The notes under the pieces: generated by a model
Seen by the model: the letters and a program-made list of their open reading frames with translations, nothing else
The model's database searches: none
Told to the model about the DNA's origin: nothing
Shown: positions 56,017 through 60,434 of the stretch, piece by piece
How positions within the stretch are numbered: position 1 is the first letter of the stretch
How the letters are laid out: each line of letters starts with the position of its first letter
Position numbers and translations under genes: made by a program
DNA from: Aminobacterium colombiense DSM 12261
Lineage (GTDB): Bacteria; Synergistota; Synergistia; Synergistales; Aminobacteriaceae
Direction: 5' to 3'
Length of the DNA stretch: 64,000 nt
NCBI RefSeq assembly: GCF_000025885.1
Contig: NC_014011.1
Span: forward strand, 620,001-684,000

Positions 56017-56789
56017 TTACCTTGAAGAAGGAAAAGGATCTTCAATATATGCGAAAGGCTGGACAGATCGTAGCAGATGTACTTGACCTTATCGCAGAGA
56101 TAGTTAGGCCCGGCATTACGACGGCTTATATAGATAAAGCCGCTGAAGATCTTATTTCAAGGGAGGGTGCCACTCCGGCTTTCAAGGGATATCGCGTTCC
56201 AGGAATACCTATTGCTTTCCCTGGAGCTGTGTGCGCATCTATAAATAATGAGATAGTTCATGGCATTCCTTCTCAAGACCGTTATCTTGAAGAAGGAGAT
56301 ATTATCAGTATCGATGTAGGAACCTGTTATGGCGGATATTATGGCGATGCAGCCTGCACCTACCCGGTAGGTAGAATAAGCCGCGAGAGACAGAGGCTCA
56401 TCGATGTGACCCTTGAAAGCCTGAATAGAGCTATAGCAGAAGCAAAAGATGGTAATACCATTGGTGATATAGGACATGCTGTAGAGTCTTATGTTATCGG
56501 GAATGGATTTGGTCTGGTGCGGGATTATACGGGACATGGTTTAGGAATGCACTTGCACGAACCGCCGCAAGTGCCAAATTTTGGACATCCAGGCAGAGGA
56601 GTGACACTTAAGGCTGGTATGACTATAGCAATAGAGCCTATGGTAATGTCGGGAGCAGAAGATACAATTGTAGGTTCAGATCGATGGGTAGTTCTTACTG
56701 CCGATGGTTCTGACGCTGCTCATTTTGAAAGATCCGTTCTCATCACAAAAGATGGGGCTGAGGTACTTACTCCTTGGAAATGGGCCTGA
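56013..56789 (+). CDS. map: Methionine aminopeptidase, type I
   Basis: Removes the initiator methionine from new proteins. The 258-residue enzyme has all five metal ligands, D101, D112, H175, E208 and E239, each four positions after the E. coli enzyme, as well as the substrate-pocket GHGLGMHLHEPPQVPN. There is no N-terminal zinc-finger extension, so it is the plain type Ia form. ATG 56013 overlaps the adk stop. Confidence 0.97.
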   Translation: MITLKKEKDLQYMRKAGQIVADVLDLIAEIVRPGITTAYIDKAAEDLISREGATPAFKGYRVPGIPIAFPGAVCASINNEIVHGIPSQDRYLEEGDIISIDVGTCYGGYYGDAACTYPVGRISRERQRLIDVTLESLNRAIAEAKDGNTIGDIGHAVESYVIGNGFGLVRDYTGHGLGMHLHEPPQVPNFGHPGRGVTLKAGMTIAIEPMVMSGAEDTIVGSDRWVVLTADGSDAAHFERSVLITKDGAEVLTPWKWA

Positions 56790-57067
56790 TCGGAGGAAGT
56801 CTGTTTCAAATAGGTCAGGTAGTGCTATCAAGGAAAGGGAAAGATGCTGGGAAATGGTATGTGGTCGTAAAGATCCAACCTGAAGATAACAGAATATTTG
56901 TTTCAGATGGCGATAAATTTCCGGTGTCCAAACCGAAAGCCAAGAATCCTTTACACCTTCAAGGAACACGATGGGTTATTGAAGAAGTTGCACAGAGGAT
57001 CGCCCGAGGAGAAGAATTGGACAAAGGACGCTTACAGTATCTTTTATCCCATGTAAGGGAAAAATGA
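56780..57067 (+). CDS. KOW-domain RNA-binding protein (L14e/L27e-like)
   Basis: A short protein (about 88-95 residues) between map and infA, where Clostridia-type genomes carry a KOW-domain protein related to archaeal L14e. The core QIGQVVLSRKGKDAGKWYVVVKI is the KOW motif, and FVSDGDKFPVSKPKAKNPLHL fits the family. Its role is unknown; ribosome or RNA binding is inferred. The start is unclear: ATG 56780 has no ribosome-binding site and overlaps map, while GGAGGA at 56792-56797 is followed by CTG at 56801, which would give MFQIGQVVLSRKG. The 3' end is secure. Confidence 0.8.
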   Translation: MGLIGGSLFQIGQVVLSRKGKDAGKWYVVVKIQPEDNRIFVSDGDKFPVSKPKAKNPLHLQGTRWVIEEVAQRIARGEELDKGRLQYLLSHVREK

Positions 57068-57102
57068 ACAGTAGTCAGAAGCAGGGAGGTTGACAAAACC
57101 GT

Positions 57103-57324
57103 ATGGCGAATAAGGACGATGTCATTGAAGTTAGGGGAACAGTCATAGAACCGCTTCCGAATGCCATGTTTAGGGTGGAATTGGAAAATGGGCACAAGAT
57201 TTTAGCTCATGTTTCAGGAAAAATGAGGATGCACTTTATTCGAATTCTGCCAGGAGACAAAGTTCTCGTAGAAATTTCACCTTATGACTTGACACGAGGA
57301 CGAATAGTGTATAGATATAAATAA
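57103..57324 (+). CDS. infA: Translation initiation factor IF-1
   Basis: OB-fold factor that blocks the ribosomal A site during initiation. The 73-residue protein has [20 protein letters not shown] and [20 protein letters not shown] and ends [11 protein letters not shown] 57103 follows GCAGGGAGG. A perfect TTGACA lies in its last codons (57289-57294), so its 3' end may hold a promoter. Confidence 0.97.
57289..57317 (+). promoter_or_regulatory. Possible promoter at the end of infA
   Basis: TTGACA at 57289-57294 is followed 17 bases later by TAGATA (57312-57317) within the AT-rich run tatagatataaat; a better hexamer, TATAAA, begins at 57316 but with a 21-base spacer. The start would fall near the infA stop and feed the structured leader before rpmJ. 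The -10 is poor, so confidence is low. Confidence 0.4.
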
Positions 57325-57443
57325 CTTGTGTTCTGCCCTTATGCTTAACCGCGGCTGGTAAAAGCATTAAATAGATAGGTCGAGAGATACCCGGAACGTC
57401 GATAAAAATCGGGTAAAGGTTTTCTCGGAGGAGCGTGGAAGAA
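57325..57443 (+). promoter_or_regulatory. Structured leader upstream of rpmJ-rpsM-rpsK-rpsD-rpoA-rplQ
   Basis: A 119-base gap, much longer than other gaps in this ribosomal run. It folds into hairpin A (57341-57346 with 57362-57367, and an inner 48-50/57-59 step) and hairpin B (57388-57393 tacccg with 57410-57415 cgggta, enclosed by 57381-57385 cgaga with 57423-57427 tctcg). The outer helix ends at the GGAGGAG ribosome-binding site of rpmJ. In E. coli, the matching alpha operon has a leader bound by S4, whose gene is also here. Function is inferred from place and fold only. Confidence 0.5.
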
Positions 57444-57569
57444 ATGAAAGTCAAACCATCGGTTAAACCGATATGCGAGCATTGCCGTGTAATACGGCGA
57501 AAAGGAGTGGTCCGGATCATTTGCAGCAAAAATCCGCGCCACAAACAGAGACAGGGTGCAAGGAGGTAA
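57444..57569 (+). CDS. rpmJ: 50S ribosomal protein L36
   Basis: A 41-residue protein reading [20 protein letters not shown] and onwards to a TAA at 57567. Zinc ligands C11, C14, C27 and H33 are present, so it is the zinc-dependent C+ form. ATG 57444 follows GGAGGAG (57427-57433). Its last codons contain the GGAGG ribosome-binding site of rpsM. At 41 residues it is slightly longer than the common 37-38. Confidence 0.95.
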
Positions 57570-57576
57570 CGAGCAC

Positions 57577-57954
57577 ATGGCCCGAATTGCTGGTGTAGAT
57601 CTACCGCGCGAAAAGCGGGTTGAAATAGCGCTTACATATATTTATGGAATTGGACTTCCTACATCTCATTTGATTCTGGCTGCTACGGGTATTAATCCTG
57701 ATACGCGAGTAAAGGATCTCACAGAAGAAGAAGCTCAGAGAATACGTAAAGAAATACAGGAGCATTACAAGGTAGAGGGAGACCTGCGCCGCGAAGTAAC
57801 CATGAATATTAAGCGGTTAATGGATATTGGTTGCTACAGAGGACTTCGTCATAGGCTGGGGCTTCCTGTTCGTGGTCAAAAGACCAAAACGAACGCTCGT
57901 ACACGGAAAGGGCCACGCCGTACCGTAGCTGGGAAGAAACAGGCCGGGAAGTAA
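57577..57954 (+). CDS. rpsM: 30S ribosomal protein S13
   Basis: Head protein that contacts P-site tRNA and L5. The 125-residue protein has [39 protein letters not shown] and [23 protein letters not shown] 57577 follows GGAGG (57562-57566); an in-frame GTG at 57556 lies inside rpmJ and is not chosen. First alpha-operon gene in E. coli order. Confidence 0.98.
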
Positions 57955-57989
57955 GAAGCAAAGATTGAACATCAAGGAGGCTGACGGAC

Positions 57990-58382
57990 GTGGCCAAACG
58001 TACACAGCGTAGAGGAAAAAAAAGAGAAAAAAAGAATGTAAACTATGGGGTCGCTCACATTTTTTCTACCTTTAATAACACTATTGTGAGCATCACAGAT
58101 AAAGGCGGAAACATTCTATCCTGGGCTTCTGGCGGTAATGTAGGTTTTAAAGGCACTAGAAAATCTACACCCTTCGCAGCGCAAATTGCGGCTCAGCAGG
58201 CAGCCAAGACTGCACAGGACCACGGGGTGAAGGAGATCGACGTAATTGTTAAAGGGCCCGGACCTGGCCGCGAATCTGCTATTCGTTCACTGCAGGCAGC
58301 GGGACTCCAGGTAAACATGATCAAAGATGCGACGCCTATTCCGCACAACGGCTGCAGGCCGCCGAAGCGTCGCAGAGTTTAA
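57990..58382 (+). CDS. rpsK: 30S ribosomal protein S11
   Basis: Platform protein near the mRNA exit. The 130-residue protein has [40 protein letters not shown] and the ending [18 protein letters not shown]. It starts at GTG 57990, 9 bases after AAGGAGG. Confidence 0.98.
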
Positions 58383-58414: not shown

Positions 58415-59044
58415 ATGAGCAGATATACAGGACCCGTATGCCGTCTCTGTAAGGCTGAAGGAGTAAAACTCTTTTTAAAAGGAGATCGTTGCTTTACAGA
58501 AAAATGCGCGATAACACGGGGAGAAACTAAGAATAAACAGAGGAGAGGCAGACCTCGCGCTAAAATGAGCGAGTATGGCCTTCGACTTCGTGAAAAACAG
58601 AAATTGCGCCGTTTTTATGGTATGAATGAAGGCCAGTTCCGACGCATGTTTGGCGAAGCTTCCAGAATGTCTGGAGTAACAGGACATAATTTTCTTCAGT
58701 TGCTTGAGCGTCGCCTTGACAACATTGTTTACCGTATGGGGCTGGCTACAAGCAGAAGCCAGGCTAGGCAGTTGGTGCTTCATGGCCATTTCACAGTAGA
58801 CGGGCGTAAAGTGGACGTGCCAAGCTACTTAATTCGTGCCGGTGCGGTTGTAGCTGTTGCTGAAAATAGCAAGGAAGTCGCCATAATTCGCGAAAATGCA
58901 GAAGTAGCGGCATCGAGAATGATTCCGGAATGGCTGGAGGTTAATAGCGAGCGGATGGAAGCGAAAGTGCTTTCCATACCAATGCGCGAACAGATAGATG
59001 TTCCCGTCAACGAGCAGCTCGTTGTTGAGTTCTATGCCAGATAG
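58415..59044 (+). CDS. rpsD: 30S ribosomal protein S4
   Basis: Primary assembly protein of the 5' domain of 16S rRNA and, in E. coli, repressor of the alpha operon. The 209-residue protein has an N-terminal zinc-type cluster (CRLCKAEG then CFTEKC, the C+ form) and an S4 RNA-binding domain (RRLDNIVYRMGLATSRSQAR). ATG 58415 follows AAGGAGG. A folded leader lies upstream of the set at 57325-57443. Confidence 0.98.
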   Translation: MSRYTGPVCRLCKAEGVKLFLKGDRCFTEKCAITRGETKNKQRRGRPRAKMSEYGLRLREKQKLRRFYGMNEGQFRRMFGEASRMSGVTGHNFLQLLERRLDNIVYRMGLATSRSQARQLVLHGHFTVDGRKVDVPSYLIRAGAVVAVAENSKEVAIIRENAEVAASRMIPEWLEVNSERMEAKVLSIPMREQIDVPVNEQLVVEFYAR

Positions 59045-59056
59045 TAGGCGTGAAAG

Positions 59057-60076
59057 GTGTTGGACAAAGTGGAACTAATGCGGCCTGAGATCCGAATTGA
59101 GGAGTGTAGCTCGACCTTTGGGAAAGTTATTGTAGAGCCCCTTGAAAGAGGATATGGTGTAACGCTGGGTAACGCTCTCCGTCGCGTGTTGCTTTCCTCT
59201 GTGAAGGGGGCAGCCATTACTTCAGTCCGTGTTGATGGCGTTCTACATGAGTTCAGTACTATTCCCGGTGTGCGTGAGGACGTAATCGAACTGATGCTGA
59301 ATCTTAAACACATCCCAGTGCATTCATACAGCAAGGATGTTAAAGTGTTGCACTTGGAAGCGGAAGGACCCAAACAGGTTGTTGCGGCAGATATTCAGCC
59401 CGATAGCGAAATTGAGTTTATTGATCCTGACGCGCCAGTATGCGTACTGGAAGATGGAGCACAATTATCGATGGACCTTTATATAGAACAGGGAGTTGGG
59501 TATGCCACTATTGATCGACCGCGACCTGCTTACCTTCCCGCGGATGCCCTTTTGATCGATGCGATTTACTCTCCAGTGCTGAAAGTGCATTACGACGTAG
59601 AAGCTGCCAGAGTAGGACAGCGTACTGACTATGAACGACTCGTTTTAGATGTAACTACAAATGGCGTTATTGCGCCGGATGTTGCTGTAGGAGAAGCGGC
59701 GAAGATTATCCGCTCATACTTCGGGTTTATCGTAGAGGATGTCGATAAGTTACACCCTCTTGAGGGGATTGATGAAGAAGAGGCAGCTCTTTCAGCGGAT
59801 GAGGCTGCGGCAGAGGCTGCAGAAGCTGCCAAAGAAGAAGATGACCTTCTTTCTCGGCCTGTGAGGGAGCTTGAGCTTTCCATACGGAGTGAGAACTGTC
59901 TTCTTCGCGGAGGTATACACACTATCGGTGATCTTCTAACGCGTACACGGGACGACCTGCTTAAAATCCGTAACCTCGGAAAGATATCTCTCCGTGAGAT
60001 AGAGGAAAGACTTGAGAAGCAGGGACTTCGCCTCAGCACAGAGAAAAGCGAAGAGAAAGCAGTAAAGGAGGACTAG
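59057..60076 (+). CDS. rpoA: DNA-directed RNA polymerase subunit alpha
   Basis: Assembly platform of RNA polymerase. The 339-residue protein has the N-terminal dimer domain (VEPLERGYGVTLGNALRRVL) and the C-terminal DNA-binding domain (SIRSENCLLRGGIHTIGDLL and RNLGKISLREIEERLEKQGL, with the Arg, Gly, Lys and Ser used for UP-element contact). Between them is an Ala/Glu/Asp-rich linker (about 238-268) longer than in E. coli. The start is uncertain: GTG 59057 is preceded by a distant AGG, and GTG 59069 lies 9 bases after AAAGGTG and would shorten it by four residues. Confidence 0.97.
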   Translation: MLDKVELMRPEIRIEECSSTFGKVIVEPLERGYGVTLGNALRRVLLSSVKGAAITSVRVDGVLHEFSTIPGVREDVIELMLNLKHIPVHSYSKDVKVLHLEAEGPKQVVAADIQPDSEIEFIDPDAPVCVLEDGAQLSMDLYIEQGVGYATIDRPRPAYLPADALLIDAIYSPVLKVHYDVEAARVGQRTDYERLVLDVTTNGVIAPDVAVGEAAKIIRSYFGFIVEDVDKLHPLEGIDEEEAALSADEAAAEAAEAAKEEDDLLSRPVRELELSIRSENCLLRGGIHTIGDLLTRTRDDLLKIRNLGKISLREIEERLEKQGLRLSTEKSEEKAVKED

Positions 60077-60080
60077 TTCC

Positions 60081-60434
60081 ATGAGACACCGTATGGATCA
60101 TAGAAGGCTTGGCCGTTATGGAAGTCATCGCAGAGCGATGCTCTCAAATTTGGCAGCGAGTCTTTTTATAGAAGGAAGCCTTACCACAACGGTGACCCGG
60201 GCGAAGGAACTTCGCCGTGTAGCCGAAAAATTTATTACAAGGGCCAAGGGCGGCTCAGTTCACGACCGTCGTATTATACGTGCTCGTCTTGGGCATAAGG
60301 AAGCTTCTATAAAACTATTTGAAGATTTGGCAAAACGATATGCCAATCGCCCAGGTGGTTACACGAGAATAATTAAGACCGGCCCCCGCCTCGGCGATGG
60401 CTCGCCTATGGCAATTATAGAGCTGGTTGAATAG
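60081..60434 (+). CDS. rplQ: 50S ribosomal protein L17
   Basis: Large-subunit protein near the tunnel exit. The 117-residue protein has MRHRMDHRRLGRYGSHRRAM, RRVAEKFITRAKGG and GGYTRIIKTGPRLGDGSPMA. ATG 60081 follows AAAGGAGG at the rpoA end. It closes the alpha set; the ECF genes follow after only 2 bases. Confidence 0.98.
   Translation: MRHRMDHRRLGRYGSHRRAMLSNLAASLFIEGSLTTTVTRAKELRRVAEKFITRAKGGSVHDRRIIRARLGHKEASIKLFEDLAKRYANRPGGYTRIIKTGPRLGDGSPMAIIELVE

Follow-up and report, generated by a model that had tools for sequence, protein, structure and literature searches.

A covarying hairpin between infA and rpmJ marks a candidate ribosomal protein leader in Aminobacterium colombiense

Is the unusually long spacer between infA and rpmJ in Aminobacterium colombiense a regulatory leader for the alpha-operon genes that follow it? 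The genome of this member of the phylum Synergistota is a single contig of 1,980,592 bases, and we analyzed a 64,000-base stretch of it (positions 620001-684000; hereafter the window, to which all coordinates refer). A sequence-only reading of the window had drawn attention to a 119-base gap at 57325-57443 as a folded leader, and the gap is exactly as long as claimed, with infA ending at 57324 and rpmJ starting at 57444. According to the list of open reading frames, the order at the locus is infA, rpmJ, rpsM, rpsK, rpsD, rpoA, and rplQ. In Bacillus, rpsD is not inside the alpha operon, whereas in A. colombiense it is; the start of rpsD was also found downstream of the gap in three relatives (L012, L018, and L041). 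The genes and the gap are as follows.

57103-57324, plus strand: infA (IF-1), from the reading-frame list; its 3' end holds a promoter-like module, and its C-terminal motif was seen in 128 loci
57325-57443, plus strand: leader, the probable 5' UTR of an rpmJ-rpsM-rpsK-rpsD-rpoA-rplQ transcript, in which conserved 5' and 3' blocks flank a neutrally evolving middle
57444-57569, plus strand: rpmJ (L36), the first gene past the leader (PF00444, E 1.7e-20)
57577-57954, plus strand: rpsM (S13), from the reading-frame list, with the ATG at 57577 taken from the sequence
57990-58382, plus strand: rpsK (S11), from the reading-frame list
58415-59044, plus strand: rpsD (S4), from the reading-frame list, opening MSRYTGPVCRLCK
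59057-60076, plus strand: rpoA, from the reading-frame list
60081-60434, plus strand: rplQ (L17), from the reading-frame list

A small reading frame between map and infA (56774-57067, beginning MEMGLIGGSLFQIGQVVLSRKGKDAGKWYVVVKI) looks like a KOW-type RNA-binding protein.

The gap is real and functional on comparative grounds, not by folding energy. Positions 57325-57443 were no more stable than their shuffles (z -0.22), nor were they when the flanks were added (z +0.19), and a search of the plus strand from 56700 to 58100 found no intrinsic terminator. When the three full Aminobacterium leaders were folded jointly, the consensus was a mixture that held no useful covariation and lost the first hairpin described below. 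For the comparison, rpmJ was located in 188 Synergistota genomes and the infA-rpmJ gap was read in about 127 loci, where its length ranged from 0 to 184 bases. Among the 80 leaders of at least 50 bases across the phylum, the mean folding z was -0.18, indicating no overall excess stability, and the mean pairing of the ribosome-binding site was 0.54, versus 0.56 in shuffled sequences. Many genera have gaps of 10 to 50 bases that contain no hairpin (just 10-41 bases in genus g10), and thus the operon can function without the hairpin element. Comparison of A. colombiense with its sister G030 showed that the fourfold sites of infA are near saturation (21 of 30 differ), and that the leader differs at 1 of 52 sites in 57325-57376, at 22 of 34 in 57377-57410, which is the neutral rate, and at 0 of 16 in the segment before the ribosome-binding site (57411-57426); the boundaries of these three parts were set after the alignment had been seen. 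A leader peptide was considered and rejected, as the short ATG frame of the window (MLNRGW) is disrupted in the sister species and missing from most of the copies in other families.

The sequence-only reading had drawn two hairpins in the gap. These and the elements around them are listed here.

57335-57340, plus strand: GCCCUU, a possible anti-Shine-Dalgarno strand that pairs with GGAGG(A)GC at 57427-57434
57341-57367, plus strand: hairpin 1, AUGCUU-A-ACC-GCGGCU-GGU-AA-AAGCAU, with covariation and a covariance model specific to the infA-rpmJ spacer
57348-57359, plus strand: motif core ACCGCGGCTGGT, of which CCGCGGCUGGU is invariant in all 10 hairpin-bearing genomes
57381-57427, plus strand: hairpin 2 of the earlier reading, not conserved as drawn
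57411-57426, plus strand: U-rich block containing GTAAAGGTTTTCTC, identical to that of G030
57427-57433, plus strand: rpmJ ribosome-binding site GGAGGAG, from the sequence

Hairpin 1 was borne out. Its ACC/GGU closing pairs had base-pair probabilities of 0.91-0.97 in the window, and the stem covaries among relatives. The hairpin is present in the infA-rpmJ spacer of 10 of the 188 genomes, distributed over four genera and three families: all three genomes of the genus Aminobacterium, four of g26 (family f5), one of g24, and two of g23 (both in family f4). The element is thus directly upstream of the ribosomal protein operon in every carrier, and in the three Aminobacterium genomes the 12-base core ACCGCGGCUGGU (57348-57359) occurs once per genome, in this gap. 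Eight distinct hairpin sequences from the four genera were aligned on an 11-pair stem that we paired by hand. Both sides change in six of the 11 pairs, and standard pairs fill 79% of the cells versus 31-45% in slid controls, a comparison biased toward the hairpin, given a small alignment whose pairing was our own. The covariation score was 0.429 compared with 0.224 +/- 0.041 in shuffles, none of 500 of which reached the observed value. The loop GCGGCU and the innermost pairs (ACC or, in the g23 copies, GCC with GGU) are nearly or fully invariant, and the outer pairs change freely with compensation. This pattern of compensated stem and fixed loop makes a DNA-binding palindrome unlikely. Hairpin 1 is the only structure in the leader for which covariation was found.

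A covariance model of hairpin 1 found ten places at 36-43 bits, every one of them in an infA-rpmJ gap, and its best match elsewhere in the 188 genomes scored 24 bits; most of the ten were training sequences, so the separation of 36 from 24 bits speaks for specificity and not for independent discovery. When 84,980 species genomes were scanned for the core followed by a ribosome-binding site and an MKV start, 14 matches were obtained. Five of these precede a genuine rpmJ, and all five are Synergistota; the remaining nine lie ahead of unrelated reading frames and were set aside as chance. No viral contig searched contained the long form of the motif. Covarying pairs and conserved sequence in relatives, whose joint absence the sequence-only reading had named among the grounds for giving up the idea of a leader, are both present, as hairpin 1 covaries and the leader is constrained. 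In a tree built from three short proteins (InfA, S13, and S11), the CCGCGGCUGGU hairpin is found on three deep branches of the order that are separate from one another. This distribution fits an ancestral element that was lost or replaced elsewhere, and it may also have arisen by convergence or transfer. Two further observations concern weaker resemblances. In genus g27, 37-base weak matches to the hairpin model with identical scores occur at three places in G108 and four in G113, and probably represent a repeated or mobile element. The gap of L044 (genus g57, family f10) contains CCUUCCAGCCGGUGAAAGG, resembling the Aminobacterium hairpin, with GGUGAAAG on the 3' side; it is possibly a degenerate relative.

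Hairpin 2, which had been described as a set of nested helices ending on the rpmJ ribosome-binding site, fared less well. It does fold in the sequence of the window, but it is not a conserved element: its outer pairs have probabilities of 0.01 or less in the two sister species and its middle diverges at the neutral rate. The U-rich stretch before the ribosome-binding site is present in other genera too. An alternative partner for this site is GCCCUU at 57335-57340, whose pairing with GGAGG(A)GC had a probability of about 0.4-0.9 in the three Aminobacterium species; the helix is invariant and for that reason lends itself to no support from covariation. Pairing of the ribosome-binding site in the f4 relatives was not above that in shuffles, and the site-masking helix is not favored there. 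Separately, many genera, including ones without a hairpin, have a conserved AGGAG(C/T)GTG(G/A) before rpmJ, a sequence that reaches well beyond the Shine-Dalgarno core.

The TTGACA that had been pointed out near the end of infA is present, and it belongs to a conserved module.

57289-57294, plus strand: TTGACA, candidate -35 element, coding for Leu-Thr of infA and co-occurring with the TATAGATATAAA tail
57310-57322, plus strand: TATAGATATAAAT, candidate -10 region, with TAGATA at 57312-57317 after a 17-base spacer; the exact hexamer is uncertain

The module reads TTGACA-N15-TATAGATATAAA in the last infA codons (57285-57324), where synonymous sites are frozen; within the genus, the final 42 bases of infA show almost no synonymous change. 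With one representative taken per genus, TTGACA and the tail occurred together in 11 genera, TTGACA only in one, the tail only in one, and neither in 43 (Fisher p 9.5e-10, a value that takes no account of relatedness). The genera with the module span six families (f1, f2, f3, f6, f8, and f10), which makes shared ancestry alone an unlikely cause. In loci with TTGACA, the penultimate Arg codon is AGA in 35 of 40 compared with 19% elsewhere in infA and rpmJ, and the Lys codon is AAA in 36 of 40 compared with 49%; the Tyr codon just upstream of TTGACA exhibits no such preference. The pattern occurs once per genome, at infA where checked, in nine of 41 relatives, and the f4 and f5 genera that carry the hairpin do not have it. 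A simple sigma-70 promoter scan reported nothing at the infA end, and at normal spacing the -10 element matches TATAAT poorly, so that this is not a clean sigma-70 promoter; the candidate rRNA promoters of A. colombiense have the form TTGACA-N16/17-TATCAT/TATTAT. The genome contains three 16S genes, as expected from the three rRNA operons published for strain ALA-1 (PMC3035294). The module is probably the operon promoter, for which the position of TAGATA predicts a start close to the first base of the leader, and it may instead have another function at the sequence level. The conserved and covarying hairpin, the constraint on the leader, and the frozen infA module are each established by comparison of genomes, and together they give good support to the earlier proposal that the structured leader is specific to a lineage and has a promoter of its own.

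A different leader, which we term type B, occupies the same gap in genera g2, g5, g8, and g18 (12 loci: L048, L050, L053, L054, L058, L063, L066, L067, L071, L072, L087, and L105). These genera belong to the same family as Aminobacterium and form one clade in the InfA-S13-S11 tree; they are without the infA module and have a TATAAT box within the gap, which suggests that in this group the operon is often expressed from the infA-rpmJ gap. Five bases after TATAAT, 11 of the 12 loci have a GCUUGG- or GCUUGA-type start. Most follow the form TATAAT-N5-GCUUGG(A/U)(G/A)AAAA and continue with a CAG..CUG hairpin, a U-rich block, and AGGAGCGUGG. Covariation gives this hairpin weak support (one pair), and, despite the null mean for the phylum, the majority of type-B leaders each exceed their own shuffles in stability. 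The two leaders are alike in their position, the operon that follows, the U-rich block, and the AGGAGCGUGG site, and the start GCUUGG(A/U)(G/A)AAAA of most type-B leaders resembles GCUGGURAAAA of the Aminobacterium hairpin; they differ in that type B has a TATAAT box in the gap, a different hairpin, and no CCGCGGCUGGU core. In several type-B leaders, CUCUG or UCUG has two possible partners, CAGA on its upstream side and CAGA(G) in the ribosome-binding site region, an alternative that could be a switch.

On balance, we somewhat favor an explanation in which the gap serves the rpmJ-rpsM-rpsK-rpsD-rpoA-rplQ operon as an autoregulatory 5' leader and the end of infA supplies the promoter. From the comparisons we infer promoter activity, a ligand, site masking, and feedback, arranged as follows. 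Transcription of the alpha operon would start from the promoter embedded in the last infA codons, and the hairpin at 57341-57367 would serve as the protein-recognition element, with the loop GCGGCU and the ACC/GGU pairs as its invariant part. A ribosomal protein of the operon, S4 by preference, would bind there and stabilize a closed form of the leader, with the rpmJ ribosome-binding site covered by GCCCUU (57335-57340); an excess of the protein would thereby lower translation of the operon. The case for S4 as the likeliest ligand is one of precedent only: the operon includes its gene, rpsD, and the known alpha-operon leaders have S4 as their ligand, whether confirmed or predicted. A more specific version, that this is an S4-responsive leader of a new structural class, ancestral to the Synergistales, replaced in one clade by a leader with its own promoter, and with the operon promoter in the infA codons, we put forward tentatively, as an account that has less than an even chance of holding in all its parts.

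The strongest competing explanation, which we consider rather unlikely, is that the hairpin is a conserved RNA element without a ribosomal protein ligand, acting in RNase processing or stability or as a translation enhancer. Constraint and covariation show an RNA function, not a ligand; the conserved U-rich block right before the ribosome-binding site would suit a translation enhancer, and since the f4 and f5 genera have the hairpin without the infA module, it may act there only in read-through mRNA. However, an invariant 11-base core between freely covarying flanks points to sequence-specific recognition more than to a processing stem, and precedent favors ribosomal protein leaders at such a position. 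It is less probable still that the hairpin has a ligand other than S4, be it S13, S11, L36, L17, or a trans-acting protein or RNA, although the first gene here is rpmJ and not rpsM. One form of this idea is a contact with rRNA or the 30S subunit, as ACCGCGGCUG is complementary to the universal 530 loop of 16S rRNA over 10 bases in the window and 12 in g26, and a 9-base antisense match arose in 2.0% of shuffled cores, a figure that is one among several comparisons made. But the bases beside the core vary with compensation, which fits a hairpin and not a conserved rRNA pairing, and CCGCGG is self-complementary, which inflates such matches; we regard the complementarity as a lead only. That the gap is leftover spacer conserved by recent common ancestry alone is highly improbable, for although its shuffle-like folding energy, the unconserved hairpin 2, and the absence of the motif from most genera would suit it, the idea is contradicted by a nearly unchanged 5' block beside near-saturated infA sites, by recurrence of the motif in separate deep branches, and by the covariation and the specificity of the covariance model.

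Returning to the autoregulatory leader, we conclude that the element is most likely a new candidate of a known kind, a ribosomal protein leader whose type has yet to be catalogued, in which a promoter is probably embedded and S4 is the candidate ligand. Such leaders have been reinvented lineage by lineage. The hairpin, its replaced counterpart in sister genera, and the probable infA promoter make the turnover of ribosomal feedback control testable within one phylum, and a compact hairpin with an invariant loop is an easy test object. If the promoter assignment is true, synonymous sites of infA would carry a promoter and a protein sequence at once in an essential gene.

How does the leader compare with known systems? 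None of the 4227 families of Rfam 15 matched it at gathering thresholds or at permissive thresholds up to E 10. The comparison with Alpha_RBS (RF00140) that the sequence-only reading had proposed gave no match in the leader up to E 10, and matches only in the relatives L054 and L066, at 19 bits versus a gathering threshold of 38, one of them aligning across the rpsM start. We found no report of a ribosomal protein leader in Synergistota in the open-licence literature. The Escherichia coli alpha operon leader represented by RF00140 nevertheless controls the same gene block, and its ligand is S4. Closer in arrangement are the S4 leaders predicted ahead of rpsM-rpsK-rpsD-rpoA-rplQ in Clostridia and Fusobacteriales (Eckert and Weinberg 2020, PMC7247131), a study whose text does not mention Synergistetes, infA, or rpmJ. 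These share with the Aminobacterium leader the restriction to one lineage and the genes downstream; they are set apart, by description, in that the Aminobacterium leader is a short GCGGCU-loop hairpin from another phylum and precedes rpmJ, after infA. The fusobacterial leader has in common with the Firmicutes S4 leader a conserved GUAA, which in the latter imitates rRNA (PMC7247131). The window hairpin ends in GGUAA, but the two sister species have GGUGA, and GUAA is kept neither there nor in g23 and g24. The Firmicutes S4 leader, as in Bacillus subtilis rpsD, adjoins rpsD and not rpmJ, and is likewise set apart by description; what it has in common with the leader proposed here would be ribosomal protein feedback on an mRNA that bears rpsD, which in A. 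colombiense is at 58415-59044 within the operon.
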